This document shows, piece by piece, positions 4,187-29,200 of a stretch of DNA of 64,000 nt. Source of the DNA: Phymorhynchus buccinoides (taxonomy: Eukaryota > Mollusca > Gastropoda > Neogastropoda > Raphitomidae). The notes below the pieces were generated by a model. The model did no database searches. It saw only the letters and a program-made list of their open reading frames with translations, and was not told the DNA's origin. The stretch lies in NCBI GenBank assembly GCA_017654935.2, contig CM065703.1, forward strand, positions 46,007,627-46,071,626. The letters run 5' to 3'. The position numbers and the translations under genes are program-made. Numbering within the stretch: position 1 is the first letter of the stretch; each line of letters opens with the position of its first letter.

Positions 4187-4766
4187 GCTATGCACGATGT
4201 TTGGCCGCTACCAGTGTAGTGGTGGCCCGACTATGCTCGATGTTTGGCCGCTACCAATGTAGTGGTGGCCCGGCTATGCACGATGTTTGGCCGCTACCAG
4301 TGTAGTGGTGGCCCGGCTATGCACGATGTTTGGCCTCTACCAGTGTAGTGGTGGCCCGGCTATGCACGATGTTTGGCCTCTACCAGTGTAGTGGTGGCCC
4401 GGCTATGCACGATGTTTGGCCTCTACCAGTGTAGTGGTGGCCCGGCTATGCACGATGTTTGGCCTCTACCAGTGTAGTGGTGGCCCGGCTATGCACGATG
4501 TTTGGCCTCTACCAGTGTAGTGGTGGCCCGGCTATGCACGATGTTTGGCCGCTACCAGTGTAGTGGTGGCCCGGCTATGCACAATGTTTGGCCTCTACCA
4601 GTGTAGTGGTGGCCCGGCTATGCACGATGTTTGGCCTCTACCAGTGTAGTGGTGGCCCGGCTATGCACAATGTTTGGCCGCTACCAGTGTAGTGGTGGCC
4701 CGGCTATGCACGATGTTTGGCCTCTACCAGTGTAGTGGTGGCCCGGCTATGCACGATGTTTGGCCT
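4187..4766 (+). repeat. 43-bp tandem repeat, ~13 copies (left arm)
   Basis: The unit contains GGCCCGGCTATGCACGATG and TTTGGCC(G/T)CTACCAGTG, with variants CGATG/CAATG and CCGCT/CCTCT. It is mirrored at 28612-29200. It lies in the BZW intron between the last two large exons, and the contig ends inside it. Confidence 0.95.
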
Positions 4767-4968
4767 GGGCGGGGTGGGGGAGCACAGGGTGAGGAAGGGG
4801 GGTGGGCACACTTGGAAAACCTAGCTATCAATTTGGCCATGCCAGGCAGCGGGATTTCTCCCTGCTCTTAGTGACTTTCAACTGCCGTGAAATTTGTGCG
4901 TGCGTAAAGCGCACGGGTCAGACTAGCTTTAAGTCCCCATCTGAAGACTCGACGTTCAGTTCGATTTA
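4767..4968 (-). mobile_element. SINE body fragment, reverse orientation
   Basis: Read on the minus strand it matches the middle of the SINE at 6428-6885: GATGGGGACTTAAAGCTAG, then TGACCCGTGCGCTTTACG, then GCAGGGAGAAA and CTGCCTGGTATGGCCAAA. The tRNA-like head and the 3' tail are missing. Mirrored at 28409-28611. Confidence 0.8.
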
Positions 4969-4969
4969 T

Positions 4970-5606
4970 TATGTGTCAACAGGGGACGTTCTAGATCAGG
5001 TGATCGTTCACTGGTTCAAACGGGCCCATAATGATGATGATGAGGATGATGATTATGATGATGATAATGTGTCAACAGGGAACGTCCTAGGAGAACAGGT
5101 GATCGTTCACTGGTTCAATCAGGCCCATAATGATGATGATGATGATGTGTCAACAGGGGACGTCCTCGGAGAGGAGGTGATCGTTCACTGGTTCAAACAG
5201 ACCCATAATGATGATGATAATGATGATGATGATGATGTGTCAACAGGGAACGTCCTAGCAGAGGAGGTGATCGTTCACTGGTTCAAACAGGCCCATAATG
5301 ATGATGATAATGATGATGATGATGATGTGTCAACAGGGGACGTCCTAGCAGAGGAGGTGATCGTTCACTGGTTCAAACAGGCCCATGATGATAATGATAA
5401 TGATGATGATGATGATGTGTCAACAGGGGACGTCCTAGCAGAGGAGGTGATCCTTCACTGGTTCAAACAGGCCCATAATGATGATGATAATGATAATGAT
5501 GATGATGATGATGTGTCAACAGGGGACGTCCTAGCAGAGGAGGTGATCGTTCACTGGTTCAAACAGGCCCATAATGATAATGATGATGATGATGATGTGT
5601 CAACAG
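4970..5606 (+). repeat. Array of duplicated BZW exon 5' edges (left arm)
   Basis: Seven copies precede the functional exon. Each holds the intron end TGTCAACAG, the exon start (protein [16 protein letters not shown] or close variants) and a GAT/AAT-rich spacer. All copies keep one open frame with the real exon because the spacers change in triplets. Choosing an upstream acceptor would add in-frame Asp/Asn-rich modules. Mirrored at 27774-28408. Confidence 0.9.
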
Positions 5607-5729
5607 GGGACGTCCTAGCAGAGGAGGTGATCCTTCACTGGTTCAAGCGTGCCCACGGCACCAAGGGAAAAAACGTGTTCCTGGACCAGATGAAGGGCTT
5701 TGTGGACTGGCTGAACAGCGCAGAGGAGG
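5607..5729 (+). CDS. BZW1/2: BZW penultimate coding exon, inverted-arm copy
   Basis: This exon encodes [20 protein letters not shown] and then [20 protein letters not shown], the last helices of the W2 (eIF5C) domain that in eIF5-mimic proteins contacts eIF2 and eIF3. The acceptor is TGTCAACAG before GGGACG and the donor is GAGGAGG/GTCAGT, so both junctions are phase 1. Its translation is identical to that of the minus-strand exon at 27651-27773. No upstream BZW exon exists on the plus strand before the N gap. It is therefore either an orphan duplicate or an assembly fold-back of the real exon. Confidence 0.85.
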
Positions 5730-5771
5730 GTCAGTGCTCTTCTCTTACTTCTGCTTCCTGAGACTTATGGA

Positions 5772-6323
5772 TTAACCCCTTCACTGCCAGAGGAAAATGG
5801 AGAAATTATCGATTTTGTATTATGAACTTTACATGGCGCCTGTTTTTCAAAATTTTGACAAAAAAAAAAAAATTTGATTCAAAGTTCAAGGGGAACAAGT
5901 GTTGAATTCTCACTTTACAAGCCTGGAATAAGCTTCATATTGAGTATGATTTTGCTTTTTCTTCAGCTTCAGGGGGGCTTGGCCCCCTGACCCCCCAACT
6001 GGGGCTCTGCCCCTGTACCCTGCCATGGGCCTGGGCGGCCTTGCCTGTTTTTGGATTTTCTCCAGTTGCATCCATGACTATAAGAGACTTGTTAGACTCA
6101 ATTTGAGAAAAATGGTCTAGAGATATACAGGGTTTGTACAGGGTCCTTGTAACGTCCTGGAATAGTCCTTGAATTTTTTTGACACAGATGTGTGCGAACC
6201 CTGGATATATCTTTCCTGACCTGTCAATGGCAAAAACACTGTATTCCAGGACTGTGCCATCAAAAGTGATGACATCATCAATGACATGACACACGAGGGC
6301 CGCCGGCAGTGAAGGGGCTAAAA
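5772..6323. mobile_element. piggyBac-type MITE with CCCCTTCACTGCC ends (left arm)
   Basis: The ends are inverted repeats, TTAACCCCTTCACTGCC on the left and GGCAGTGAAGGGGCTAA on the right, with TTAA at the left end and a decayed TTAG/TTAA at the right. Many piggyBac-type elements have TTAACCC-starting ends. A 153-codon minus-strand frame inside shows no transposase motif and I do not call it a gene. Mirrored at 27057-27608. A shorter relative is at 11036-11281. Confidence 0.7.
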
Positions 6324-6427
6324 ATCCGCAATGGCAATGAAAAAAGCCACAGTAAAGGGGAGGGTGAGGGGCGCTGCTTAGAAAACGATATACCATACTT
6401 TATAAGGCGATACTTTCCCCAGACCAA

Positions 6428-6885
6428 GACCACTGAGCCTTAGGGAGAAAGGTGGCAGAGTGGTTAAGACGTTCGCCTGCCAAATGTAATGCGTGACTGC
6501 AGCGTGAGTGACCCGGGTTCGAATCCCGGCCTCCTCGCCCTTTCTTTCCAGTTTGACAGGAAAATCGAACTGAACGTCCAGTCCTTCGGATGGGGACTTA
6601 AAGCTAGTCTGACCCGTGCGCTTTACGCGCACGTAAAAATCCCACGGCAGTTGAAAGTCGGTAAGAGCAGGGAGAAACCCCGCTGCCTGGTATGGCCAAA
6701 TTGATAGCTAGGTTTTCCACCAAGTGTGACCACACCCCCTCCTTACCCTGTGGCCTCCCCTCAATTTTTTAATTGGGCAGGCGCTGCACATGCGGCGACG
6801 CGCTCTCCGGGGGAGAGCAGCCCAAATTTCACAGAGATAAGTCTCTGTGACTAGAATATACCAAATACCAAATATAATATGACTC
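6428..6885 (+). mobile_element. tRNA-derived SINE, full length (left arm)
   Basis: The head is tRNA-like. The pol III box A is TGGCAGAGTGG and box B is GGTTCGAATCC within the T-arm CCGGGTTCGAATCCCGG. The body includes GATGGGGACTTAAAGCTAG, and the end has GAGAGCAGCCCAAATTTCAC followed by the tail TACCAAATACCAAATA. The head resembles a Ser/Leu-type tRNA, but the acceptor stem pairs poorly (about 5 of 7) and the long body shows this is a retroposon, not a tRNA gene. Mirrored at 26500-26945. Confidence 0.85.
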
Positions 6886-7261
6886 AAAAATGAGTAACTC
6901 AGTAAGAACATATAATAACAAAATCTTTATTTTGTGTACAATTTGGGGGACGCACCTTATAACCAGGTGCGTCTTGTACCAGTCCGTGAAATACGGTAGA
7001 ATGTAAAGCTGTTAATATCATTTTTTTAAAGTGCAAATTTACAAATAAAAGTAACATTGTTTTGTTTTGAAAGTTCAGGTTTTCAGATATGGAGGCACGA
7101 GGGAGTAATGCTGTGTTTCTAGTACAGTAGTAGTTTTTGTGCATTTTTCACCTTGTTACTTTAAAAACGCTACTCATCTTCTAGAGTCGTTTCCCTTTAC
7201 ATTGAACAAAATTTTTCATTCAGACAGTTTGAAAAGGGCTACTTACATTTTACAATTCCCA
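6886..7261. other. Intronic spacer
   Basis: Sequence between the SINE tail and the AGGTCA-rich repeat. It contains GGTGCGTC near 6966 and its inverted match near 6951, a small hairpin. No gene is visible. Confidence 0.4.
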
Positions 7262-8290
7262 ATTTCCATTTATTTTTAGTCCGTCACCAAGACGGACTAT
7301 TGCGATGGGCTGGTTTGTATTTTTGTTTGTTTGGGGTTTTTGGGGGGGGGGTTTCTGTCTGTCCCAAGGATATCTCCCGAACCGCTTGACCGAATCGCGT
7401 CAAATTTTGTGTGAAGGTGTGCCTCCTTAATAGGAAGAGATTGGCGCAAACCATTTTGCCGTCGTGACCTTGACCTTGACGTACGACCTTGAAAACCGAA
7501 AATCTATTTTTAGCCATATCTCGGGCACCGATCAACATAGGATGTTGAAACTTGGTATGAAGGTGGTTTGGCTTATGCCCGTTCTGATGATGGCATACCG
7601 ATCAAGGTCAAGGTCAAGGTCAAAAGATCGCTGGAGCCTGAAAATCGGAGGGTCATTTTTTTCTCCTTCTGTCTGTCCCAAGGATATCTTTCGAACGGGT
7701 TGACAGAATCACGTCAAATTGTGTGTGCTGGTGTGTCACCATGAGAGGAAGGCATCCGCGCAAACCATATTGCCGTCGTGACCTTGACCTTGGCGTACGA
7801 CCTTGAAAACCGAAAATCTTTCAGGGGCCATAACTTCCACACCGTTAGTGTTAGAGTCTTCAAATTTGGCATGAAGGTACTTTGGCTTATGCCCGTTCTG
7901 ATGGTGGCATACCGATCAAGGTCAAGGTCACGGTCCGTGCGATCCGTAGGCCTTGAAAGTGGTAGGGGTCTACACATTGGGTTTTAAGCCATATTTTCCA
8001 CATTTGTACTTGACAGAAGCGCTTCAGATTGTGTGTGGTACTGTATACCCTAGAGAAGAAAACATCCGAGCATAAATTATCACCATGCTGACCTTGACCT
8101 TGAAGTGTGACCTTGAAAACCGAAATTTCCTTCTTTGCGCTATATGTTTCTTCTTCAAGCTGTATCTCGTGAACTAGAAGACAGAATCCCTTCCAATTTT
8201 GTGTCAGGATTTGACACTCTACGGGGTGTCGCAAGTGCGTGGCATTGCTGGTGACGGACATGTCTGCCGCTCGGCGACGCCCTTGTTATT
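7262..8290. repeat. AGGTCA-rich interspersed repeat (left arm)
   Basis: About 1 kb built of three or four diverged internal modules. Each runs CTGTCCCAAGGATATCTC, TTGTGTG, GCGCAAACCAT, the cluster GACCTTGACCTTGACG, and GACCTTGAAAACCGAAA. The ends carry inverted TCCGTCACCA (7280) and TGGTGACGGA (8251). Clusters such as TCAAGGTCAAGGTCAAGGTC near 7608 are tandem AGGTCA half-sites. Other copies are at 25095-26110 (mirror) and 61617-62345 (independent). No coding capacity. Confidence 0.8.
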
Positions 8291-8499
8291 TTTATTTTTA
8301 AAAAATTCTTTGTGAATACTGCAAATAAACAACTAACTTGCCCAAGTAGAGAATTTCTGTCCATCTGTTAAGAAAATTGTGTACATGTCACGGGAAATTC
8401 TGGAATCCAGGAAAATTCCGAATTTTACTTGAAAATTTTAGAATTAACGATTGTTTTTGGGAAATTTCCGAATTTTCCAAACTTAGAAAATTTCCAAAC
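8291..8499. other. Unassigned spacer with a GAAATTTCC-rich patch
   Basis: Near 8390-8500 the short words GGGAAATT, GAATTTTC and AAATTTCC recur in both orientations. No gene is visible. Confidence 0.4.
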
Positions 8500-8745
8500 A
8501 AGTGACTACATGCTATTGGTCACTGCAATGACCACCTTTTGCAAGAGTGAATGCCCTTGGTAGATGCTTGAGTACTGACCAAACAAGGGATTAACTCTTG
8601 CCAATAACCCTATTTGAGGCCACTGAATGGCTGCCTTTTGCAAGAGTGAATGCCCTTTTGAATACTGACCAACAAGGGGTTAACTTTCACTGTCAAGGGC
8701 GTTAATAACCCTAGTTGCAGTGGCCAATGCAAATGAAAATCTTGA
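8500..8745 (-). repeat. Interspersed repeat (AGGGTTATTAACGCCC family), left arm
   Basis: On the minus strand this reads AGGGTTATTAACGCCCTTG, AAGGGCATTCACTCTTGC and GGTCAGTA with internal duplication. The same order occurs at 32480-32660 on the plus strand and, mirrored, at 24640-24880. The family is unknown. Confidence 0.75.
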
Positions 8746-9091
8746 CAAAGAGAAAGAGAGAGAGAAAACACTTGAAATCTTGTACACTTGCCTGTATTCA
8801 TTGTTCATTACTCATTGTCAGACCTGTTTACCACACAAGTCTTGAGTAGTCTGGATAGCTGAAATGAGTAGTTTTGGTGCAAAATGTGTAGTTTTATTAA
8901 TTAAACCATCAAACAATGTTCACTGAAAAATGAGTAATTAGAGCATTATTTTCAATTTTGAAGAGTAGTAGAGGTCCAAATTGAGTAGAATGCTACTGGA
9001 AAAGAGCAAGGTAAACAGGTCTGTATTGTTTGTGTCCCACTGTAAGTCCTTTCTCATTTTAATCTTTTTCTACCAATACATTCACGCATAA

Positions 9092-9095
<4 letters not shown>

Positions 9096-9132
<37 letters not shown>

Positions 9133-9142
9133 CCCCCCCCCC
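9096..9142. repeat. (TC)n and poly-C tract
   Basis: A dinucleotide run followed by a C homopolymer. Mirrored near 24240-24286 with a different number of units. Confidence 0.95.
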
Positions 9143-9844
9143 CTTTGTGTGAGGAGGAGGGAGATCACATCTATTTTTTCTTCTTCTTGGATAATTGTTC
9201 GATGATTATTTTTGCATGCTTCATTATTTTTGTGTTGAATATTTGATTTTCTTGCATGTTTGTTTGAGGGCAAGATGTAAAAAAAATAATTCGAATTTCC
9301 CCAGATTACAAATTTCCCCATGACATACACAGACTGGAGGTAAATACTTGAATGTGGCTGGGGTTGGGTTTTTTTTGGGGGGTTGGGGGGTTTAAACAAA
9401 TCTTTATTCATTTGAAACAGAAAGACAATTAGAGCAACAACAATCTCGAAGCTTATACCGTGCTCCTTAAGAATTAACATCATAGTTGCATTGATTGAAC
9501 AGATGGAGACTGCATTTAAACCAAGTAATGTAATGATGAACAATATTAAAGGTATTATTAATCATATAGTAAAATCAATATAATTTATAAACTTATTTAT
9601 TTTTCGTAATTGCTACAATAAATTTCAAAAACAAAATATTTCCGTTGAAATAAGATCATTAATTTTGAACTGTAATCATTTTGGTAGGCAAATGTTTAAG
9701 AAGTTACATAACAAAAATGAAGACATGCAAATTAATTAACAGCAAAAATTGGTACAAAAACTGATCCCCGAAACAAAGCCTGTAATGGGGTTTTTTTATG
9801 ACCATATCTGTATTGTGATGTGGCTGTGTGTGTATGTTCCACAG
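9143..9844. other. Intronic, no recognised element
   Basis: AT-rich sequence upstream of the terminal BZW exon copy. A 153-codon minus-strand frame overlaps the microsatellite and is accidental. SNPs against the right arm are visible near 9480-9510. Confidence 0.4.
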
Positions 9845-9879
9845 AGTCAGAGGAGGAGGAGGAAGAGGAGGAAGACTAG
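9845..9879 (+). CDS. BZW1/2: BZW terminal coding exon, inverted-arm copy
   Basis: After the acceptor TTCCACAG, 35 nt complete the split Glu codon and encode S followed by seven E, D and the stop TAG (9877-9879). This matches the acidic C-terminal tail that ends BZW proteins. The phase (2 nt completing the codon) fits the donor at 5729. A candidate ATTAAA poly(A) signal is at 9993 and AATAAA at 10581, both on the plus strand. Identical in reading to the minus-strand exon at 23503-23537. Confidence 0.85.
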
Positions 9880-10149
9880 AGAGCCAGCCAACATCTGTAG
9901 CTGAGGCAGCTGTTGAAGAAAGGTCGCTGAACAGTGGCGCCACCTGCTGCTGACGCTGATGATGATTCGGCATTCGTTCTGCCGTCAACGAGATTAAAAA
10001 AATCTACTTTTTTTCTTTAAAACTCTGCACATTTATTATCTCAAAACACTGTGTTGTGTGGGGGTTTTTTTCTGTTTTATTAACATTTTTGTTCCAGTGG
10101 AGGTGTTATGTCAGGGCTCCCAAATCGTCCCGCAAAACAAGGGGTCCCA

Positions 10150-11020: not shown

Positions 11021-11035
11021 GAAAATCTAATCTTT

Positions 11036-11281: not shown

Positions 11282-11399
11282 ATATTGACCATCTCGTAAG
11301 TACTACCTAAGCACCATGAAGATTATTACCGGGTACCTAATTTTTTTGGTTAAAATGGGTTTTCAGGAATATGAAATGAAATATAGAGATGTTGTTTTT

Positions 11400-15557: not shown

Positions 15558-15716
<159 letters not shown>

Positions 15717-16434: not shown

Positions 16435-16695
16435 TCACGTGGTGCGAAGAAAGTCATCCAGCTGAGCCTGGAATTCCGGATTGTTCAACACCGCCAGAGC
16501 CTCTTCGTCATCGTCATCGTCGTCACCACCATCATCGTCCCCCAGCAGACTCTTCAAGTTCTTGTCCGCCAGTTTCTCCAAAGCGGCGATCGTGCTTTGG
16601 TCTTGCTCCTCTTTCGTCTTCTTCTCTTTCTTCGCAGACTTCGCTCGCGATTTGGATCTTTTCGGCTTCGGGGCTGCTGCAGCTGGGGCTGCAGC
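16435..16695 (-). CDS. Unidentified gene X, C-terminal exon (left copy, truncated at palindrome centre)
   Basis: The minus strand encodes 86 residues and a stop. An Ala/Pro-rich start is followed by a basic stretch (KPKRSKSRAKSAKKEKKTKE), a helix-like STIAALEKLADKNLKSLLG, a poly-Asp/Glu run, and the terminus ALAVLNNPEFQAQLDDFLRT plus T. Varied codons and a following 3'UTR-like region with AATAAA at 15972-15977 support real coding. The reading frame stays open past the centre only because the other arm is its complement, so the true upstream part of this gene is absent. I do not recognise the family. It is convergent with BZW. Confidence 0.6.
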   Translation of the reverse strand, partial: AAAPAAAAPKPKRSKSRAKSAKKEKKTKEEQDQSTIAALEKLADKNLKSLLGDDDGGDDDDDDEEALAVLNNPEFQAQLDDFLRTT

Positions 16696-16728
16696 TCCTG
16701 CAGCCCCAGCTGCAGCAGCCCCGAAGCC
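16664..16728. repeat. Centre of the giant inverted repeat
   Basis: Around 16696, CTGCAG (16689-16694) and CTGCAG (16698-16703) flank the 3-nt CTC. GGGGCTGCTGCAGCTGGGG reads outward as its perfect complement on the other side, with no larger spacer. The sequence is GC-rich and self-complementary (Ala/Pro codons). Confidence 0.97.
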
Positions 16729-16957
16729 GAAAAGATCCAAATCGCGAGCGAAGTCTGCGAAGAAAGAGAAGAAGACGAAAGAGGAGCAAGACCAAAGCAC
16801 GATCGCCGCTTTGGAGAAACTGGCGGACAAGAACTTGAAGAGTCTGCTGGGGGACGATGATGGTGGTGACGACGATGACGATGACGAAGAGGCTCTGGCG
16901 GTGTTGAACAATCCGGAATTCCAGGCTCAGCTGGATGACTTTCTTCGCACCACGTGA
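16697..16957 (+). CDS. Unidentified gene X, C-terminal exon (right copy, truncated at palindrome centre)
   Basis: Plus-strand partner of the 16435-16695 exon. It has the same 86 residues with PKPKRSKSR, ALEKLADKNLKSLLG, an acidic run and the end PEFQAQLDDFLRTT before the stop TGA-type end at 16957. Followed by a 3'UTR-like stretch with AATAAA at 17415. The gene would run toward BZW's 3' end, with about 6.5 kb between the two stops. The function is unknown. The basic patch could be a nuclear localisation signal (inference). Confidence 0.65.
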   Translation, partial: PAAPAAAAPKPKRSKSRAKSAKKEKKTKEEQDQSTIAALEKLADKNLKSLLGDDDGGDDDDDDEEALAVLNNPEFQAQLDDFLRTT

Positions 16958-17414
16958 TGGAACAGATATGGCTGTGCAGTCGGGTTTCAGAACCCAGGTG
17001 TTGTTTGTGTTGGTGTGTGCTTACGAAAATGGTGTGCAATTTTCTTCATACAGTTTGAAAAGGATTGAGCTTGCCTGTTCGTTCAGTTATTCTGTCTTTC
17101 GGTGTTCATCTGTGGTTTGTCTGCATTTCTTTGTTGTTGTTTTCCCCCTTTGACACCCCGTGTGTGCATCTCTCTTTCTGACTCTCTCTCTCTCTCTTCT
17201 TTTCGTCTGCCGTTTTGTTTTCTGTTTTTGTACAGTGCATCGTGCAGGCATCAGAAAAGTCTGAAGTCCAATCCTCTGAAAACTGCGGTAAAAGGGCCAT
17301 CAAGGCCCCAGACTAAAGAGAGACAACACTGAAATCAGTTCTGAACACCGCCAAAAAGGCTTGATACAGTGAGAAATCACTTTAAAATGCTATTTAATAC
17401 AAAGGATAACACTC

Positions 17415-17420
17415 AATAAA
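17415..17420 (+). promoter_or_regulatory. Poly(A) signal AATAAA for the right gene-X copy
   Basis: AATAAA followed at once by ATAAA and a run of A, about 460 bp after the stop at 16957. Confidence 0.5.
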
Positions 17421-17686
17421 ATAAAAAAAAAAGGCAAAACCTCTGACAAGAGAAGCCAATCCTCTGTCAGAAATTCTTAATCCTCTGATAATTCTGATGC
17501 CTGATCATGACATAACTAGTCGTTGTACAGAAACCATTTTCTGCACTATACCAGTCACATGAAGTTAAGTTAAGGATCACATTACGAACTGCTTGGATCT
17601 TTCCAGTGGTGTCAATGGGTTCAATGTGTATTAGACTTCAGTTGAGAGGTAAAGACAATGGAAGGAAAGGGATGTGTGTGTGTGTG

Positions 17687-17830
<144 letters not shown>

Positions 17831-18062
17831 TTGTCATTACCATCAAGACAGACATTTGTAAAGCCTTAATCAAGTTAATGTCAAACATCAAAACATTAAT
17901 TTCAAATCCTTTGTGTCATTACCATCAATGAGTATATTGTGTCTGTATGTGTGGTGTGTATGCGTCTGCACGTGAGTTGTGTGCGTTCAAGTGTTGGTGT
18001 GTGTATACAGGGGATTTGAAAGCTCATGGCGATACACTTACTATTGCTGTTTGTGATATCAC

Positions 18063-18218
18063 TTTAATTTCTCCCCTGAAGTCGTAGTGTGGCTGCCAGG
18101 GTCATCAAAAACGGTCACACACGTAATGTTCTCATCCCTAGCTGATGCATTTGTACCTGATAGTGTTCAAGTGCTTCGGCTGTTGGGATGATCCCTGGAG
18201 TCTTTTAGCCAGGGTAGC
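18063..18218 (-). repeat. 150-bp interspersed repeat, right arm copy b
   Basis: Mirror of 15172-15322. Confidence 0.8.
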
Positions 18219-20261
18219 TCAACAACGTTTTTCCTTTTCGTTCCATTGTCTATAACTCTAATACTTTACAATTGTTATGTACATAAATTATCATTCAACC
18301 ATAACGTCAACTAATCCGTCCCCGTTCTGTCACTTGTGATGACATTTTGACATTATTTTCAAAACTTACATAATCGAGGAAAAACAACAAAGGTGTGTAA
18401 ATACAAATACATTCTTATAATATTATATATCAGAAAGCATAATGTTGGCTTGTTCAATTTTAGAATGCCCGAGTCTAGGCTTCACTGCTGCAAGCCGAGA
18501 ATGTATCAATTGTTATGTAAGAAGGGATTTTACATAATAATGTTGACTTTGGTGTCCGCAGACTTGCCTAATATTGAAACTGCAATTTTACGTGTTTCCA
18601 CGTACGCTTATCCCAACTGCTTATTTCTGACTTTCTTTCACTTATTTGCGTATAAGCACACAATGTGTCTGCGTGTAATGTGCGCAAAGCCTTACTCTTT
18701 ATTCAAATTTCAGTTTTGTTGTTGTCTGAGGTGTTTGAGTCAACAACTTCCTTCAATACAAAAAATATATATGTGGAAGTGGTAACATTCTGATGTGTGT
18801 GATTTTTAAAAAATTATTGATTACGATTTGAAGCAACTAGTAATAATAACAGATTATCATAGTTTAACAAAAAACGTGCTTTCTTAAATCGACTTCTCGT
18901 TGACCCATTTTATCATTTAAAGACACACGGACCCAGCACGATTAAGTCCCTTGGTTTTTTTCTGGGTCGGTGTGGCCCACATACAGACTTTCCTCATAAT
19001 TATACGATCGAGGCTGCTCTTTAAAGTGATGTCTCGTTTTCGTGCATGAGGAAATTTGTATGGGAGCCACACTTGATCAAAATAAGATTTCTTACCAGCG
19101 AGAGAGGGAAAACACGTGAAACCCGTGATTTTCATATCACGGACCTGGTGGGTCTTTAACAGTTTTGCTTTACTTAAAACCAACACATAAAAGATAAACA
19201 AAGAATGTTCCACTTAATTCCATGGTACATAGCCCTTATGTACCACTAGCTTAGCTATGTGCTGACATGTAGTTGTGAACAAACTTCAATAGGATTTAGT
19301 GCAATGTTCTGATATCAGGCAAGATACCATCTTTCACATTACTTCTTTTTCTTATTCGTTGATTGCTCAGTTTCTTGTCATTATGAGCGCAGATGCGCCA
19401 TGCTGCTGTTATGCGCCTAAGAAATAGGGTTAGGCTGGAGAAAATCTTTGTAAAGAGTTTCTAGAACAAAGGCAGGAAAATAGACCAGTAAGGCAGAAAG
19501 ATGATGCACGACAGTAAGCCAAGGGAAAAGACAGAGTCAAAGAGGAAGCTACAAGCACCTTCCAGAACATGGGGGAACTATTTGTACAAAACTCCCAGGG
19601 AGAATCCTTCGCATTTTGAAGTCATCAGTGCTGTGACATAAATAAAGAAAATGTTATTTTCTTCCTATTAAAAAACCCACCCAAGGCCTGTTTTGAAGCA
19701 ACAAAACTTTGTGTAATATTTAATTATTTTCAGAATACTTGGCAGGAATACTTTTATATGCAGATACAAGCCTATTTACTTATAATCTTGCAATAGAGAT
19801 CAACTTCTATTTGGACTTTACATCCCCTTTAATGTTGACAAATATCATAACAAAAAATTATATACGTTTGAAACTGAAGATTTTCTCAGTTGGTTGTGTT
19901 CGTTTTGCATTGCTACATCAGTATTTCTTGAAGGGAAGGGGGGGGGGGGGGGGGGGGCACATTTGTGTATTAGACAAGTTGTCTGTGATAGCAATTTTGT
20001 CTCTTTTATGACGAACAAGCTTTGACGAAAATATATGATGAATATGTACGAGTTGTGATCTCTCATTACGTTCACGTCGGACATGAGTGAATAAAATCTG
20101 ATCATCATCATCGACATGTTGTGGTTTGTCATAAAACTAGTCAAGTTATACCATCAATAGGAATAATTGGATGCTTTTGGAGCGTGAGGACAATGTGCTG
20201 TGCTGTTGTTTGTGTGTGTGTGTGTGTGTTTCTGGTTATGTGTCTGTGTTAAATGTGGACC
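18219..20261. other. Intergenic, mirror of 13139-15171
   Basis: Same content as the left arm with small differences. For example, a 4-nt difference near 18475 corresponds to about 14910. The G homopolymer is at 19939-19957. No gene is supported. Confidence 0.45.
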
Positions 20262-20803
20262 CTGACGGATGAGTTTTTGCAAGAAACACATCGAGATCAC
20301 CATGACAACACCATTTACAGAGATCGCAACACTGACTTTGCTCTGGTTTCCTGGAAATCAAACCGTCAAATCGGCGATTTATCCTTGGCGGAGGTGCTGG
20401 AAGTCAAATTCTTTCACTGAAAGAGAAGGCGTGTGTCGTCTCTTTTGTAATGGCGACCAAATTGTTTGCACGAATTTTTTGCAATACAAGCCTTTTTATT
20501 TATCTTAAAAAAAAAATTGTATGCAGTTTATCTAAAAGAGTTTCGCTCACAATAAAGAAAATAGCTTCAATTTTTTTTTTACAGCACTACAAAAAAGAAA
20601 AAGCTTAAACCACAATGGGTTTGGCCCCCACCCACCCCATCCATGGCTTCTCTCTCCGGCACCTCCGCCAAGGAGGAATCGCCGTTTAGACAGTTTGATT
20701 TCTAGGAAACCAGAGCAAAGCGAGTGTTCCGATCTTTGAAAAGGCTGTCTTTCTGGTGATCTCAACGTGTTCCTTGCAAAAACTCATCCATCAGGGTCTA
20801 CCT
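20262..20803. repeat. Fold-back element (right arm)
   Basis: Mirror of 12585-13138. In about 95 bp at 20270-20370 I count six base differences from the left arm, far more than around the centre. Confidence 0.8.
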
Positions 20804-20821
20804 TTAAGAGAGAGAGAGAGA

Positions 20822-21230
20822 GAGAGACATAGTGTATTTGGTATTTGGTATTGGTAATTAGTACTTTATAGTCACCTAGGCGTCTGTGAAATTCGGGTTG
20901 CTCCCATCTGGAGAGCGCATTGCAGCCAGAGGCGCGCCACCCATTTTATTTTTTTTATTTGCATGCAATTTTTGTGAGACTGTTGAGAAAGAAAACGTGT
21001 GGTGGTAAATTTTGACCAAATGACAACTTTTTCGTTGCCACTGGGTTTAACGTGTGCTAAGTGCATGGGCACATGGGACCTCGGTTTATCGTCTCATCAA
21101 AAGACTCCACGTTCAGACAGTAAGGCCTAGTGCAAAGTGAGAGGAAAAATCCCCTGTGCCCAGGTTCGAACTCGGGTTTATTGTATACGAGGCGAAAGCG
21201 TTACCTCTGTGCCTCTCTCTGTGTGTGCGT
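20822..21230 (-). mobile_element. tRNA-derived SINE, second family (right arm)
   Basis: Mirror of 12160-12562, tail at 20830-20870 and box B-like region near 21165-21175. Confidence 0.75.
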
Positions 21231-21837
21231 TTCTTTAAAATCTCAACAGCAGTGCAGTGTCCCCTCTGCTGGTTGCCTCTTAAAGACCTGACATAGATTT
21301 GCTCCCCTTGGACTGCTGGTTTGGGATTCTGCGACCTGACAAACCAGGGTGTGGCTGCGAGTTGGGATTCAGAATGAGCGGCGTGGGAGCAACGCCACTG
21401 TCCAGCCCAGAAGATGGGACAACTAAAAAAATGTTTTAACAAATAAAAGAAGGGGGAGACAGGAGATAAATGACAACTTTAAAAAGAGAGGGAGATGTTT
21501 CAATTCAAGTCCCCCCCACCCCCTCCCAGCACATGTCAGGTTCAATGAATCACAGCCTCTTATTGACAATCCAATCAATCTCTTATGAATATGCACACAC
21601 AATTCGGCTCCATTGCAATCGTTTATTAACATTTTCTCCAATAAATTTAAATTTATAAAAACGACCAGTTTGATCATAGCAGTAAGAAAAGATACCGATA
21701 GAGTATTCTTAGTGAGTGTGTAAAATTATAAATCACCAGTATACTGTACTTCTTGCGCTCTACGAATGGATGCTCACGCAATCTCAAACTCTCTCTCCAA
21801 CTCCAGCTAACGTTAATCATCTCTATATTTTTTTCCT
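21231..21837. other. Intergenic, mirror of 11556-12159
   Basis: No gene or named element seen. Confidence 0.4.
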
Positions 21838-21995
21838 CCTAAGTCGGAGTGTGGCTGCCCACATGGCGGGGTAATAAAAAAACCGGTCACACACGTAATG
21901 TTCTCATCCTTAGCTGGTGCATTTGTACCATAATGTTCAAGTGCTTCGGCTGTTGGGATGATCCCTGGAGTCTTTAAGCCAGGGAAAAACAACAT
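21838..21995 (-). repeat. 150-bp interspersed repeat, right arm copy a
   Basis: Mirror of 11400-11555. Confidence 0.8.
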
Positions 21996-22102
21996 CTCTA
22001 TATTTCATTTCATATTCCTGAAAACCCATTTTAACCAAAAAAATTAGGTACCCGGTAATAATCTTCATGGTGCTTAGGTAGTACTTACGAGATGGTCAAT
22101 AT

Positions 22103-22349
22103 TTAACCCTTTCACCGCCAACGTCGCATTTTAGCACCACAATGGTTTAACACCCATGTCACTAAAAGGCATCCAATCCAGACCTGTTATCCAAAGACCC
22201 TATTTTCTTAATTTTGGGAGGTAAGGTTAGGCCTAATGTTATGCATGTTACAGAGGAATTCGCAATATTGCAGAATATTTTTTTTTCTCTACCCAGTTAA
22301 GCTAAATGGTATTTTTTGGCTGAAAAATGGCTGGCAGCGAAAGGGTTAA
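22103..22349. mobile_element. piggyBac-type MITE (right arm)
   Basis: Mirror of 11036-11281, with TTAA at 22103-22106 and 22346-22349 and ends CCCTTTCACCGCCA and (inverted) CCCTTTCGCTGCCA. Confidence 0.8.
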
Positions 22350-22371
22350 AAAGATTAGATTTTCAGACTTT

Positions 22372-22545
22372 ACAAAGGAAACATTCGGTCTTAAATTGGA
22401 GAGGTCTTCTTATAATGGAGGTCAGATTACTTTGATACATAAATTATAGTAACATACATTACATCCGTGCCAAAACAAATCAGTCTTACATGAGAGGAGA
22501 TCTTTTAACGGAGGATCTTATAATAGAGGTTCGACTGTATAATTA
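22372..22545. mobile_element. Possible pogo/Tigger-like MITE (right arm)
   Basis: Mirror of 10849-11020, ending GAGGTTCGACTGT. Confidence 0.4.
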
Positions 22546-22796
22546 TACTCTTTGTTCAAAATAAGATGGATGAAAACAAATCTCTAATTAAATAAAATAA
22601 GTGTACATTATACAAGATAATTCTATAAACCTGAACCAACATGCTTGTCAGAAAACGTATCCCATACAAAACCCAGATAACAAGGACAAAACATACAGGG
22701 CTCCCAGGGACCCCCATTTGGGGGTCTTTGAAGCACTAAAATTCTAAAGGACCTTCTAAAAGAATGCGCAGGGGGTCCCAGGGATGCACAAGAAAT

Positions 22797-22802
22797 TTTA
22801 TT
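22797..22802 (-). promoter_or_regulatory. Candidate BZW poly(A) signal
   Basis: AATAAA on the minus strand about 700 bp after the BZW stop, just past the 21-bp minisatellite. An ATTAAA closer to the stop (23384-23389) is an alternative. Confidence 0.35.
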
Positions 22803-22811
22803 TCTAGCATT

Positions 22812-23218
22812 CGCAATGCCACTGGGACCCTCTATCCCGCCTCTATGACCCTCTATCCTGCCTCTATGACCCTCTATCCTGCCTCTAGGACCCTCTATCC
22901 CGCCTCTAGGACCCTCTATCCTGCCACTGGGCCCCTCTATCCTGCCACTGGGACCCTCTATCCTGCCTCTAGGACCCTCTATCCTGCCACTGGGACCCTC
23001 TATCCTGCCTCTAGGACCCTCTATCCTGCCACTGGGCCCCTCTATCCTGCCACTGGGACCCTCTATCCCGCCTCTAGGACCCTCTATCCTGCCACTGGGA
23101 CCCTCTATCCTGCCTCTAGGACCCTCTATCCTGCCTCTAGGACCCTCTATCCTGCCTCTAGGACCCTCTATCCTGCCTCTAGGACCCTCTATCCTGCCTC
23201 TAGGACCCTCTTATCTGT
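22812..23218. repeat. 21-bp minisatellite (right arm)
   Basis: Mirror of 10150-10570. The plus strand is open as [14 protein letters not shown] repeats. Lies in the presumed BZW 3'UTR or just beyond. Confidence 0.95.
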
Positions 23219-23502
23219 AGGTGAAGGAGTCCCTGGGACCCCTTGTTTTGCGGGACGATTGGGAGCCCTGACATAACACCTCCACTGGAACAAAAATGTT
23301 AATAAAACAGAAAAAAAACCCCACACAACACAGTGTTTTGAGATAATAAATGTGCAGAGTTTTAAAGAAAAAAAGTAGATTTTTTTAATCTCGTTGACGG
23401 CAGAACGAATGCCGAATCATCATCAGCGTCAGCAGCAGGTGGCGCCACTGTTCAGCGACCTTTCTTCAACAGCTGCCTCAGCTACAGATGTTGGCTGGCT
23501 CT

Positions 23503-23537
23503 CTAGTCTTCCTCCTCTTCCTCCTCCTCCTCTGACT
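23503..23537 (-). CDS. BZW1/2: BZW terminal coding exon
   Basis: The acceptor CCACAG is followed by AGTCAGAGGAGG, encoding ESEEEEEEED and the stop (CTA on the plus strand at 23503-23505). The acidic tail is the normal BZW C-terminus. It completes the Glu codon split at 27651. The intron before it is about 4.1 kb and carries a SINE, a MITE and the AGGTCA repeat. Confidence 0.9.
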
Positions 23538-24238
23538 CTGTGGAACATACACACACAGCCACATCACAATACAGATATGGTCATAAAAAAACCCCATTAC
23601 AGGCTTTGTTTCGGGGATCAGTTTTTGTACCAATTTTTGCTGTTAATTAATTTGCATGTCTTCATTTTTGTTATGTAACTTCTTAAACATTTGCCTACCA
23701 AAATGATTACAGTTCAAAATTAATGATCTTATTTCAACGGAAATATTTTGTTTTTGAAATTTATTGTAGCAATTACGAAAAATAAATAAGTTTATAAATT
23801 ATATTGATTTTACTATATGATTAATAATACCTTTAATATTGTTCATCATTATATTACTTGGTTTAAATGCAGTCTCCATCTGGTCAATCAATACAACTAT
23901 GATGTTAATTCTTAAGGAGCACGGTATAAGCTTCGAGCTTGTTGCTGCTCTAATTGTCCTTCTGTTTCAAATGAATAAAGATTTGTTTAAACCCCCCAAC
24001 CCCCCAAAAAAAACCCAACCCCAGCCACATTCAAGTATTTACCTCCAGTCTGTGTATGTCATGGGGAAATTTGTAATCTGGGGAAATTCGAATTATTTTT
24101 TTTACATCTAGCCCTCAAACAAACATGCAAGAAAATCAAATATTCAACACAAAAATAATGAAGCATGCAAAAATAATCATCGAACAATTATCCAAGAAGA
24201 AGAAAAAATAGATGTGATCTCCCTCCTCCTCACACAAA
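23538..24238. other. Intronic, no recognised element (right arm)
   Basis: Mirror of 9143-9844. SNPs against that copy are visible near 23875-23945. Confidence 0.4.
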
Positions 24239-24249
24239 AGGGGGGGGGG

Positions 24250-24286
<37 letters not shown>
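24239..24286. repeat. poly-G and (GA)n tract
   Basis: Mirror of 9096-9142. Confidence 0.95.
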
Positions 24287-24288
<2 letters not shown>

Positions 24289-24639
24289 TTATGCGTGAAT
24301 GTATTGGTAGAAAAAGATTAAAATGAGAAAGGACTTACAGTGGGACACAAACAATACAGACCTGTTTACCTTGCTCTTTTCCAGTAGCATTCTACTCAAT
24401 TTGGACCTCTACTACTCTTCAACATTGAAAACAACGCTCTAATTACTCATTTTTAGTGAACATGTTTGATGGTTTCATTAATAAAACTACACATTTTGCA
24501 CCAAAACTACTCATTTCAGCTATCCAGACTACTCAAGACTTGTGTGGTAAACAGGTCTGACAATGAGTAATGAACAATGAATACAGGCAAGTGTACAAGA
24601 TTTCAAGTGTTTTCTCTCTCTCTTTCTCTTTGTCAAGAT

Positions 24640-24880
24640 TTTCATTTGCATTGGCCACTGCAACTAGGGTTATTAACGCCCTTGACAGTGAAAGTTAACC
24701 CCTTGTTGGTCAGTATTCAAAAGGGCATTCACTCTTGCAAAAGGAAGCAATTCAGTGGCCTCAAATAGGGTTATTGGCAAGAGTTAATCCCTTGTTTGGT
24801 CAGTACTCAAGCATCTACCAAGGGCATTCACTCTTGCAAAAGGTGGTCATTGCAGTGACCAATAGCATGTAGTCACTTGT
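24640..24880 (+). repeat. Interspersed repeat (AGGGTTATTAACGCCC family), right arm
   Basis: Mirror of 8500-8745 and related to 32480-32660. Confidence 0.75.
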
Positions 24881-25094
24881 TTGGAAATTTTCTAAGTTTG
24901 GAAAATTCGGAAATTTCCCAAAAACAATCGTTAATTCTAAAATTTTCAAGTAAAATTCGGAATTTTCCTGGATTCCAGAATTTCCCGTGACATGTACACA
25001 ATTTTCTTAACAGATGGACAGAAATTCTCTACTTGGGCAAGTTAGTTGTTTATTTGCAGTATTCACAAAGAATTTTTTAAAAATAAAAATAACA

Positions 25095-26110
25095 AGGGCG
25101 TCGCCGAGCGGCAGACATGTCCGTCACCAGCAATGCCACGCACTTGCGACACCCCGTAGAGTGTCACATCCTGACACAAAATTGGAAGGGATTCTGTCTT
25201 CTAGTTCACGAGATACAGCTTGAAGAAGAAACATATAGCGCAAAGAAGGAAATTTCGGTTTTCAAGGTCACACTTCAAGGTCAAGGTCAGCATGGTGATA
25301 ATTTATGCTCGGATGTTTTCTTCTCTAGGGTATACAGTACCACACACAATCTGAAGCGCTTCTGTCAAGTACCAATGTGGAAAATATGGCTTAAAACCCA
25401 ATGTGTAGACCCCTACCACTTTCAAGGCCTACCGATCGCCCGGACCGTGACCTTGACCTTGATCGGTATGCCACCATCAGAACAGGCATAAGCCAAAGTA
25501 CCTTCATGCCAAATTTGAAGACTCTAACACTAACGGTGTGGAAGTTATGGCCCCTGAAAGATTTTCGGTTTTCAAGGTCATACGCCAAGGTCAAGGTCAC
25601 GACGGCAATATGGTTTGCGCGGATGCCTTCCTCTCATGGTGACACACCAGCACACACAATTTGACGTGATTCTGTCAACCCGTTCGAAAGATATCCTTGG
25701 GACAGACAGAAGGAGAAAAAAATGACCCTCCGATTTTCAGGCTCCAGCGATCTTTTTGACCTTGACCTTGACCTTGATCGGTATGCCATCATCAGAACGG
25801 GCATAAGCCAAACCACCTTCATACCAAGTTTCAACATCCTATGTTGATCGGTGCCCGAGATATGGCTAAAAATAGATTTTCGGTTTTCAAGGTCGTACGT
25901 CAAGGTCAAGGTCACGACGGCAAAATGGTTTGCGCCGATCTCTTCCTATTAAGGAGGCACACCTTCACACAAAATTTGACGCGATTCGGTCAAGCGGTTC
26001 GGGAGATATCCTTGGGACAGACAGAAACCCCCCCCCAAAAAAACCCAAACAAACAAAAATACAAACCAGCCCATCGCAATAGTCCGTCTTGGTGACGGAC
26101 TAAAAATAAA
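25095..26110. repeat. AGGTCA-rich interspersed repeat (right arm)
   Basis: Mirror of 7262-8290, with tandem TCAAGGTCAAGGTCA at several places including near 25568 and 25908. Confidence 0.8.
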
Positions 26111-26499
26111 TGGAAATTGGGAATTGTAAAATGTAAGTAGCCCTTTTCAAACTGTCTGAATGAAAAATTTTGTTCAATGTAAAGGGCAAACGACTCTAGA
26201 AGATGAGTAGCGTTTTTAAAGTAACAAGGTGAAAAATGCACAAAAACTACTACTGTACTAGAAACACAGCATTACTCCCTCGTGCCTCCATATCTGAAAA
26301 CCTGAACTTTCAAAACAAAACAATGTTACTTTTATTTGTAAATTTGCACTTTAAAAAAATGATATTAACAGCTTTACATTCTACCGTATTTCACGGACTG
26401 GTACAAGACGCACCTGGTTATAAGGTGCGTCCCCCAAATTGTACACAAAATAAAGATTTTGTTATTATATGTTCTTACTGAGTTACTCATTTTTGAGTC

Positions 26500-26945
26500 A
26501 TATTATATTTGGTATTTGGTATATTCTAGTCACAGAGACTTATCTCTGTGAAATTTGGGCTGCTCTCCCCCGGAGAGCGCGTCGCCGCATGTGCAGCGCC
26601 TGCCCAATTAAAAAATTGAGGGGAGGCCACAGGGTAAGGAGGGGGTGTGGTCACACTTGGTGGAAAACCTAGCTATCAATTTGGCCATACCAGGCAGCGG
26701 GGTTTCTCCCTGCTCTTACCGACTTTCAACTGCCGTGGGATTTTTACGTGCAGTAAAGCGCACGGGTCACACTAGCTTTAAGTCCCCATCCGAAGGACCG
26801 GACGTTCAGTTCCATTTTCCTGTCAAACTGGAAAGAAAGGGCGAGGAGGCCGGGATTCGAACCCGGGTCACTCACGCTGCAGTCACGCGTTACATTTGGC
26901 AGGCGAACGTCTTAACCACTCTGCCACCTTTCTCCCTAAGGCTCA
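26500..26945 (-). mobile_element. tRNA-derived SINE, full length (right arm)
   Basis: Mirror of 6428-6885. Box B (GGTTCGAATCC on the minus strand) is near 26855 and box A near 26922. Confidence 0.85.
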
Positions 26946-27056
26946 GTGGTCTTGGTCTGGGGAAAGTATCGCCTTATAAAGTATGGTATATCGTTTTCTA
27001 AGCAGCGCCCCTCACCCTCCCCTTTACTGTGGCTTTTTTCATTGCCATTGCGGATT

Positions 27057-27608
27057 TTTAGCCCCTTCACTGCCGGCGGCCCTCGTGTGTCATGTCATTG
27101 ATGATGTCATCACTTTTGATGGCACAGTCCTGGAATACAGTGTTTTTGCCATTGACAGGTCAGGAAAGATATATCCAGGGTTCGCACACATCTGTGTCAA
27201 AAAAATTCAAGGACTATTCCAGGACGTTACAAGGACCCTGTACAAACCCTGTATATCTCTAGACCATTTTTCTCAAATTGAGTCTAACAAGTCTCTTATA
27301 GTCATGGATGCAACTGGAGAAAATCCAAAAACAGGCAAGGCCGCCCAGGCCCATGGCAGGGTACAGGGGCAGAGCCCCAGTTGGGGGGTCAGGGGGCCAA
27401 GCCCCCCTGAAGCTGAAGAAAAAGCAAAATCATACTCAATTTGAAGCTTATTCCAGGCTTGTAAAGTGAGAATTCAACACTTTTTTCCCCTTGAACTTTG
27501 AATCAAATTTTTTTTTTTTTGTCAAAATTTTGAAAAACAGGCGCCATGTAAAGTTCATAATACAAAATCGATAATTTCTCCATTTTCCTCTGGCAGTGAA
27601 GGGGTTAA
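27057..27608. mobile_element. piggyBac-type MITE (right arm)
   Basis: Mirror of 5772-6323. The intact TTAA is at 27605-27608. Confidence 0.7.
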
Positions 27609-27650
27609 TCCATAAGTCTCAGGAAGCAGAAGTAAGAGAAGAGCACTGAC

Positions 27651-27773
27651 CCTCCTCTGCGCTGTTCAGCCAGTCCACAAAGCCCTTCATCTGGTCCAGG
27701 AACACGTTTTTTCCCTTGGTGCCGTGGGCACGCTTGAACCAGTGAAGGATCACCTCCTCTGCTAGGACGTCCC
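27651..27773 (-). CDS. BZW1/2: BZW penultimate coding exon
   Basis: Encodes the end of the W2 domain. An Arg completed across the junction precedes [20 protein letters not shown], then [19 protein letters not shown]. Vertebrate BZW has a closely similar block at its end. The acceptor is TGTCAACAG and the donor is GAGGAGG/GTCAGT. The 220-nt upstream exon ends in phase 1, and this 123-nt exon keeps the frame. It is the most 3' of eight near-copies of its own first ~50 nt. Confidence 0.93.
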
Positions 27774-28408
27774 CTGTTGACACATCATCATCATCATCAT
27801 TATCATTATGGGCCTGTTTGAACCAGTGAACGATCACCTCCTCTGCTAGGACGTCCCCTGTTGACACATCATCATCATCATCATTATCATTATCATCATC
27901 ATTATGGGCCTGTTTGAACCAGTGAAGGATCACCTCCTCTGCTAGGACGTCCCCTGTTGACACATCATCATCATCATCATTATCATTATCATCATGGGCC
28001 TGTTTGAACCAGTGAACGATCACCTCCTCTGCTAGGACGTCCCCTGTTGACACATCATCATCATCATCATTATCATCATCATTATGGGCCTGTTTGAACC
28101 AGTGAACGATCACCTCCTCTGCTAGGACGTTCCCTGTTGACACATCATCATCATCATCATTATCATCATCATTATGGGTCTGTTTGAACCAGTGAACGAT
28201 CACCTCCTCTCCGAGGACGTCCCCTGTTGACACATCATCATCATCATCATTATGGGCCTGATTGAACCAGTGAACGATCACCTGTTCTCCTAGGACGTTC
28301 CCTGTTGACACATTATCATCATCATAATCATCATCCTCATCATCATTATGGGCCCGTTTGAACCAGTGAACGATCACCTGATCTAGAACGTCCCCTGTTG
28401 ACACATAA
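27774..28408 (-). repeat. BZW1/2: Array of duplicated BZW exon 5' edges (right arm)
   Basis: Seven extra copies of acceptor plus exon start lie directly upstream of the real exon and encode [21 protein letters not shown] units joined by Asp/Asn runs (ATC/ATT repeats on the plus strand). Unit lengths are multiples of three and the frame is open through all eight units. The most distant copies are the most diverged ([31 protein letters not shown]), as expected if expansion is recent near the exon. Confidence 0.92.
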
Positions 28409-28611
28409 TAAATCGAACTGAACGTCGAGTCTTCAGATGGGGACTTAAAGCTAGTCTGACCCGTGCGCTTTACGCACGCACAAATCCCACGGCAGTTGAA
28501 AGTCACTAAGAGCAGGGAGAAATCCCGCTGCCTGGTATGGCCAAATTGATAGCCAGGTTTTCCAAGTGTGCCCACCCCCCTTCCTCACCCTGTGCTCCCC
28601 CACCCCGCCCA
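28409..28611 (+). mobile_element. SINE body fragment (right arm)
   Basis: Mirror of 4767-4968. Confidence 0.8.
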
Positions 28612-29200
28612 GGCCAAACATCGTGCATAGCCGGGCCACCACTACACTGGTAGAGGCCAAACATCGTGCATAGCCGGGCCACCACTACACTGGTAGCGGC
28701 CAAACATTGTGCATAGCCGGGCCACCACTACACTGGTAGAGGCCAAACATCGTGCATAGCCGGGCCACCACTACACTGGTAGCGGCCAAACATTGTGCAT
28801 AGCCGGGCCACCACTACACTGGTAGCGGCCAAACATTGTGCATAGCCGGGCCACCACTACACTGGTAGCGGCCAAACATCGTGCATAGCCGGGCCACCAC
28901 TACACTGGTAGCGGCCAAACATCGTGCATAGCCGGGCCACCACTACACTGGTAGCGGCCAAACATCGTGCATAGCCGGGCCACCACTACACTGGTAGCGG
29001 CCAAACATTGTGCATAGCCGGGCCACCACTACACTGGTAGCGGCCAAACATTGTGCATAGCCGGGCCACCACTACACTGGTAGCGGCCAAACATCGTGCA
29101 TAGCCGGGCCACCACTACATTGGTAGCGGCCAAACATCGAGCATAGTCGGGCCACCACTACACTGGTAGCGGCCAAACATTGTGCATAACCGGGCACATC
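28612..29200 (-). repeat. 43-bp tandem repeat (right arm)
   Basis: Mirror of 4187-4766. The last unit degenerates at 29190-29205. The minus strand just before the array reads LLYKADV, which may be a trace of the neighbouring exon end (LYK). Confidence 0.93.

Follow-up and report, generated by a model that had tools for sequence, protein, structure and literature searches.

Results

A palindrome at a contig end carries parts of two genes

The window, which is the whole 64,000-nucleotide stretch of Phymorhynchus buccinoides DNA analyzed here, comes from a 2.12-Gb assembly. It holds exons of a BZW gene (eIF5-mimic protein), the C-terminal coding end of a second gene, gene X, and a palindrome that mirrors both. 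The features are listed below in window coordinates.

3687..4186, no strand: scaffold gap of 500 N, immediately preceding the left arm
4187..4766, no strand: 43-bp tandem array, holding the left-arm end and the contig end
4187..16694, minus strand: left arm, an inverted copy of the right arm, read here as a probable false contig extension
4187..52259, no strand: contig c2, 48,073 bp long and flanked by 500-N gaps, redundant with part of the neighboring long contig c4
5606..5728, plus strand: last BZW exon, left-arm mirror copy (tblastn; W2 domain PF02020, E 1.1e-21)
16435..16692, minus strand: gene X C-terminal coding fragment, left mirror copy, 5'-truncated at the palindrome center
16689..16703, no strand: CTGCAG-CTC-CTGCAG, a 6-bp inverted repeat with a 3-nt loop, shared with the ordinary copy (C24:46246274) and proposed as the site of folding back
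16695..16697, no strand: CTC spacer (3 nt), which forms the loop in the natural hairpin
16698..29190, plus strand: right arm, an inverted copy of the left arm, colinear with the ordinary locus
16700..16957, plus strand: gene X C-terminal coding fragment, right copy, 5'-truncated at the palindrome center
27652..27774, minus strand: last BZW exon, right arm (tblastn)
28612..29195, no strand: 43-bp tandem array, outer end of the right arm
40742..52259, no strand: raw-read-like end of c2, with 32–81 SNVs and 43–65 indel events per 1-kb bin against c4

Self-alignment matched positions 4189–29188 to their own inverse in a single match at 98.91% identity. Around a center at 16696, 299 of 300 symmetric pairs match, compared with at most 113 for the other centers tried from 16000 to 17399.5. 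The initial annotation had described a near-perfect palindrome of about 25 kb, centered on 16696 with no more than 3 nt between its arms, and the self-alignment and the CTC spacer bear this out. Inverted copies with almost no sequence between them, here 3 nt, are what a fold-back artefact would leave. The left arm also begins exactly at a 500-N gap, as had been noted: its first base is the first base after 3687–4186 and lies within the 43-bp tandem array. Where this arm stops, we looked for a junction into unrelated sequence and found a contig end in the tandem array. Because the arm starts at a gap and inside an array, the palindrome's outer edge is no more than a contig end, and the palindrome constitutes one end of the 48-kb contig c2. 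The left flank (1–3686) gave two matches to sequence right of 29190 at E 1e-5 (411 and 82 bp, 77%–79% identity), so the flank is not a continuation of the locus.

Across 240 kb of scaffold, of which 55,500 letters are N, no other spacer-free palindrome was found: the inverted pairs of at least 500 bp were one pair of 646 bp and 24 mutually overlapping matches that link two stretches of tandem repeats. No Rfam family matched at gathering scores.

The two gene X copies had been annotated as convergent, which is incorrect; the fragments are divergent, reading outward from the center at which both lose their 5' part. In the ordinary copy of the locus, the gene X frame is open for 358 codons and runs through the point corresponding to the palindrome center. 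Searches with the 85 residues encoded in the window, rather than the longer frame of the ordinary copy, returned nothing below E 0.1 in Pfam, no solved relatives (best E 0.82), and no homologues at E 0.001 among 334 candidates.

An unmirrored copy of the locus lies on the same scaffold

If the palindrome were an artefact, an unmirrored arrangement of the locus would be expected in the genome, and one is present. A third copy lies approximately 0.22 Mb away on the same scaffold, from C24:46246274 onward, in the long contig c4. This ordinary copy is colinear with the whole right arm and continues beyond 29190 through BZW; on the other side of the center, it leads directly into 5' sequence of gene X that the mirrored contig lacks. 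Window positions 16689–52259 are colinear, piecewise, with C24:46246274–46281307, at 99.3% identity over 19.2 kb to 35830 and then in lower-identity pieces to 52259. The left arm, read from the center outward, matches C24:46246283–46258779 at 98.9%. With 40 of 249 candidates scored, a 601-bp arm probe located at least three near-identical copies; a 501-bp gene X upstream probe, for the 5' part missing from the mirrored contig, located one, in c4 (5 of 5 candidates scored).

Contig c2 is thus a redundant copy of a stretch of c4, in which the locus is single and unmirrored. It is bounded by gaps at 3687–4186 and 52260–52759. At its far end, the differences from c4, counted in six fully aligned 1-kb bins, look like those of raw-read sequence, although a strongly diverged or decayed copy would look alike. 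The 5' exons of BZW were not recognized in this end (40742–52259); exons encoding residues 1–137 of P0001 are present in c4 and had no match in c2 at E 0.01. The next contig, c3, is also redundant with c4, at 96%–99.6% in readable colinear pieces. Two features expected of an uncollapsed haplotype were found: redundant contigs colinear at allelic divergence (c2 to approximately 38 kb, and c3, each against c4) and gaps that separate the two copies on their shared scaffold (500 N around c2 and before c4).

The arms and the ordinary copy are three distinct sequences

Across 12,481 ungapped columns, global alignment of the two arms gave 28 indels and 93 SNVs (53 transitions and 40 transversions), an SNV divergence of 0.75%. 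Raw sequencing error was rejected as the source of these differences because SNVs greatly outnumber indels, unlike in 40742–52259, where indel events are about as frequent as SNVs. With 28 indels in 12.5 kb, the left arm is too clean for raw-read quality, so it must derive from more than a single noisy read or have been polished afterward.

The first difference between the arms follows 623 clean columns from the center, a run with a probability of 0.002 under a uniform spread of differences. We considered whether the center is specially perfect, but the run ranks third longest of 122 intervals and is therefore weak evidence for gene conversion or for a single molecule. The inner 3.6 kb is poor in SNVs, with 9 (0.25%) compared with 84 (0.94%) in the remainder (block-shuffle p = 0.01, with the boundary picked post hoc).

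In three-way comparison, the odd one out was the left arm at 61 SNV sites, the ordinary copy at 32, and the right arm at 29. Between 16.7 and 20.2 kb, the arms agree against the ordinary copy at 12 of 19 sites and the left arm differs at 6. Beyond 20.2 kb, there are 104 sites: the right arm and ordinary copy agree at 55, the left arm and ordinary copy at 28, and the two arms at 20, with three alleles at 1. The near/far contrast had p = 0.0002 (Fisher test on two-allele columns), for a cut chosen after inspection. The arms are therefore not mutual closest relatives over their full length, contrary to what duplication in vivo would predict. The odd-one-out label is clustered in blocks, changing 48 times in 122 steps; as few changes occurred in 0 of 20,000 shuffles. 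The blocks are mixed, above all at 20.2–22.0 and 24.3–28.5 kb, and a clean phasing of the three copies into two haplotypes fails for this reason. We suspect that consensus errors in repeats produced the mixture.

One explanation for arms that carry different allelic variants, in a contig that is itself a redundant copy, is a purely computational join, in which the contig end of one haplotype was merged with the reverse strand of the other and no folded molecule existed. The natural palindromic stretch in the ordinary copy is, however, just 15 bp (6-3-6), and 15 bp is too short an overlap for a long-read assembler. The arms also mostly agree over the inner 3.5 kb, as one folded molecule predicts. 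We regard such a join as the least probable of the readings considered here.

A short natural hairpin marks the center

A short natural inverted repeat at the center would be expected of an inverted duplication formed in vivo, and the CTGCAG hairpin provides one. In 20 kb of the ordinary copy, 6-bp inverted repeats with a loop of 3 are centered at 8 of 19,985 positions, and those with loops of 0–6 have 65 centers in all. Short inverted repeats of this size are described as able to start real inverted duplications (PMC7999016, PMC10622511); those described in yeast have repeats of 5–9 bp with 3- to 12-bp spacers in one account (PMC7999016) and repeats of 3–15 bp in another (PMC10622511).

A real inverted duplication on one haplotype would have arisen if a break in gene X was resected, the end folded back on itself at the CTGCAG repeat, and fill-in and replication followed, leaving a palindrome of at least 25 kb in place of the gene X 5' part on the affected chromosome. 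The center geometry resembles that described for the yeast events (PMC7999016, PMC10622511), and the left arm is well-finished sequence. The sequence upstream of gene X was found once and not twice, as this explanation predicts, but a collapsed locus would look identical. Against it, arms identical at birth should be mutually closest throughout, yet their SNV divergence is 0.75%, and in its outer part the right arm resembles the ordinary allele more closely than the left arm. Divergence on this scale points to an old event, but long arms that have little or no spacer between them are described as more recombinogenic (PMC7999016). Moreover, the outer boundary is nothing but a contig end, in a redundant and partly raw-read-like contig. 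We consider this origin very improbable. An old, segregating version, in which one haplotype carries a real palindrome of 25 kb or more with no spacer and the arms have undergone gene conversion with the ordinary allele, seems to us somewhat less credible again; if true, it would have removed the gene X 5' part and gained extra BZW 3' exons.

Discussion

Judged from the assembled sequence, the palindrome is very probably a fold-back assembly artefact within a false duplicate rather than a biological feature, and we propose no biological function for it. The artefact is favored because an unmirrored copy lies on the same scaffold, c2 is redundant and has a raw-read-like end, and the outer arms are not closest relatives. 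The natural hairpin at the center of the ordinary copy, the redundancy of c3, and the outer edge at a contig end also speak for it. The initial annotation had judged a fold-back read or a chimera at a contig end to be at least as good a fit as a real inverted duplication, a view that the unmirrored copy, the redundant contig, and the arm relationships support.

During library preparation, a DNA strand would have folded back at the CTGCAG-CTC-CTGCAG hairpin in gene X, and its 3' end would have primed copying of its own strand. The resulting self-complementary read or reads may then have made the assembler turn the end of c2 back over c2. Reads from the two haplotypes would subsequently have extended each arm separately, and the scaffolder would have set c2 into the chromosome between 500-N gaps. 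A single folded molecule with separately extended arms predicts agreement of the arms near the center and divergence outward, as observed. The three different sequences and their mixed blocks count against this model, since the two haplotypes of a diploid are insufficient to explain them; under two haplotypes, the mixed pattern needs a mosaic consensus, repeat errors, or pooled animals.

Fold-back reads are reported to make up approximately 0.55%–0.6% of Oxford Nanopore (ONT) genomic reads, a figure for ONT, whereas the platform of the present assembly may differ (PMC12870357). Some are described as having no sequence between their halves, and they are said to cause tangles in assembly graphs; the same survey reports virtually none for PacBio HiFi (PMC12870357). 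False duplications are attributed mainly to divergent copies of haplotypes (PMC9516828).

Reading the palindrome as an artefact removes a false claim of a stable giant palindrome, extra BZW exons, and a duplicated gene X. With c2 and c3 redundant, gene counts and synteny are unsafe in this stretch of the scaffold. Were the palindrome real, its survival would be exceptional for a long palindrome that is still intact.

Among known systems, the fold-back inverted duplications described in Mre11/Sae2-deficient yeast (PMC10622511) are likewise centered on a short natural inverted repeat whose loop is short; their arms come from one chromosome end, whereas here the arm variants differ and an unmirrored copy is present. 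Near-perfect self-complementarity with little or no sequence at the center is shared with fold-back read artefacts of long-read libraries, as described in PMC12870357, and with the palindromes of whole-genome amplification, as described in PMC6218980. Unlike those read artefacts (PMC12870357, PMC6218980), the present case is a finished contig whose arms carry different variants, and it is known from the assembly alone. As in the haplotig false duplications described in PMC9516828, both copies sit on one scaffold, separated by gaps, and one has read-like errors; what differs from that description is that one end here also turns back on itself, which adds a 12.5-kb third copy.

Structure of the palindrome

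Self-alignment of the window gave a single inverted match, 4189–29188 onto itself, at 98.91% identity; the near-perfect palindrome of about 25 kb claimed in the initial annotation is therefore present, with a 3-nt spacer.

Components of the palindrome (window coordinates)
4187–16694, left arm
between the arms, 3 nt, spacer CTC
16698–29190, right arm

Across 12,481 ungapped columns, a global alignment of one arm against the other showed 93 SNVs (0.75%) together with 28 indels. These differences formed clumps: their variance-to-mean ratio in bins of 500 columns was 2.7, a value that 10,000 random placements never reached. The left arm begins exactly at a 500-N gap, as the annotation had also stated: its first base directly follows the gap and lies within a 43-bp tandem array, the right-arm counterpart of which ends at 29195. 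Because the arm starts at a gap inside an array that is matched in the right arm, the palindrome has no natural outer edge.

A separate inverted match of ~400 bp (77% identity) pairs 3263–3661 in the left flank with 34837–35207 in the right part of the contig and is probably a dispersed repeat. ARAGORN called a 95-nt tRNA-Gln in both arms (6445–6539 and 26840–26934), probably a tRNA-derived SINE and not a tRNA gene.

An ordinary copy of the locus

The window lies at C24:46007627–46071626 in an assembly of 2.12 Gb (3962 pieces). Besides the two arms, a probe from the centre hit a third locus on that scaffold, from C24:46246274 on. The forward match of this ordinary, unmirrored copy starts only at window position 16689; it is colinear with the right arm at 99.3% over 19.2 kb, to 35830, and then in pieces to 52259 (98.5% and 96.5% to 39024, 73–86% thereafter). 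On the other side of the centre it does not turn back but continues into sequence of gene X, the gene cut by the palindrome centre. Among the 40 of 249 candidates scored, a 601-bp arm probe gave near-identical matches at three loci (both arms and the ordinary copy), its other hits being short and no more than 86% identical. A 501-bp gene X probe from upstream of the centre matched one place only, with no further match above 81% (5 of 5 candidates scored).

At the centre, the ordinary copy reads CTGCAG-CTC-CTGCAG, and pairing ends after 6 bp. In 20 kb of this copy, 6-bp repeats with a loop of 3 are centred at 8 of 19,985 positions (65 centres in total for loops of 0–6). That the fold coincides with a natural hairpin suggests folding of a strand and not a chance join.

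Three-way comparison of the copies

The two arms were aligned with the ordinary copy, and the 12 columns nearest the centre were excluded. Among 123 gap-free SNV columns, the odd one out was the left arm in 61, the ordinary copy in 32 and the right arm in 29, with three alleles in 1; gap columns gave 29, 19 and 14, respectively, with all differing in 3. Within 16.7–20.2 kb (19 SNVs), the ordinary copy was the odd one in 12, the left arm in 6 and the right arm in 1; beyond 20.2 kb (104 SNVs), the left arm was odd in 55, the right arm in 28 and the ordinary copy in 20 (Fisher test on two-allele columns, 12 versus 7 and 20 versus 83, p = 0.0002, the 20.2-kb cut having been picked post hoc). Agreement between the arms prevails near the centre, and farther out the right arm mostly goes with the ordinary copy. 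If the duplication arose by folding of one chromosome, the arms should be sisters over their whole length; we consider a real palindrome on one haplotype very unlikely. This pattern fits a folded molecule with separately extended arms: a molecule would have folded, and its arms would then have been extended from reads of different haplotypes. The pattern is mixed in 20.2–22.0 and 24.3–28.5 kb, which stands against a tidy version of the folded-molecule account.

Redundancy and quality of the contigs

The readable part of the scaffold consists of contigs c1, c2 (window 4187–52259), c3 and c4, separated by 500-N gaps. Stretches of c4 are colinear with c2 (99.3% across most of its clean part) and with c3 (96–99.6% in the pieces that could be read); the presence of two copies to the right of the arm was established by direct comparison of c2 with c4. 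Eighteen 1-kb bins of c2 at 17–35 kb had 0–9 SNVs and 0–4 indel events each, whereas the six fully aligned bins from ~41 kb to the end had 32–81 SNVs and 43–65 indel events. Where bins aligned only in part, the 41-, 46- and 48-kb ones were no better or worse still, and the 40- and 52-kb ones contributed just 240 and 252 columns; no c2–c4 alignment was found in 45.1–46.4 and 47.1–48.2 kb. The far end of c2, beyond ~41 kb, resembles raw reads. In tblastn searches with the Babylonia protein of BZW, the eIF5-mimic protein gene, five segments in c4 covered residues 1–139, and the first segment in c2 starts at residue 138; since these N-terminal segments are present in c4 and missing from c2, the noise belongs to c2. 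Contig c3 is redundant with c4 as well (window 52760–64000; C24:46133162–46174796), so the duplication error reaches beyond the palindrome.

Genes and tandem arrays

Both arms hold BZW 3′ exons, directed inward from outside, and among 84 relatives of the BZW exons the closest named were Babylonia (70%) and Nucella (62%), so the DNA probably comes from a caenogastropod. Both also hold the C-terminal coding end of gene X. The annotation had expected convergent gene X copies in the event of a real palindrome, but both are cut at the centre and read outward. The 5′ part of gene X is seen in c4 and absent from both c2 copies; in the ordinary copy, a 358-codon open frame (C24:46245466–46246539) runs through the palindrome cut point; the encoded sequence is Lys-, Glu- and Ser-rich and bears an acidic stretch close to its end. 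Searches with the C-terminal 85 residues as in the window, on their own, gave no match and no family for gene X. Outside the palindrome, a minus-strand reverse-transcriptase frame (PF00078; window 269–1513) adjoins a plus-strand frame that is LINE-like; together the two look like a retroelement whose 5′ part is inverted.

BZW contains tandem arrays made from exon edges, apparently including splice sites, which could alter splicing.

Locations of BZW exon-edge arrays
window 27734–28406
window 29427–30231
window 35492–35959
window 37585–37988
C24:46257243–46277686

Six of the seven c4 arrays with units of at least 60 bp overlap an exon edge, versus 1.85 expected at random (p = 0.0014; the array list and exon edges were compiled manually once the pattern had been noticed, with nested arrays merged). 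Unit numbers of some of these arrays are unequal in the c2 and c4 copies. One BZW intron contains a minisatellite with a 34-bp unit, repeated 71 times in c2 (window 38170–40588) and 25 times in c4 (C24:46267719–46268573), and an 11.6-kb array with a different 43-bp unit (C24:46300858–46312434) lies downstream of the ordinary BZW copy.

Origin of the palindrome and comparison with known systems

The palindrome is, with high probability, a fold-back chimera located at one end of a contig that is itself redundant. One survey (PMC12870357) reports that fold-back reads make up ~0.55–0.6% of ONT genomic reads, some with no sequence separating the halves, that they cause assembly-graph tangles and that PacBio HiFi data contain virtually none; which of these rates bears on the present assembly would depend on its sequencing platform. 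The hairpin position alone does not discriminate between an origin in the test tube and one in the cell, because inverted duplications described in yeast use repeats of the same size as the CTGCAG pair (PMC7999016; PMC10622511). Our contigs also resemble false duplications, whose described marks or causes include gaps between a pair on the same scaffold, divergent haplotypes and read errors (PMC9516828).
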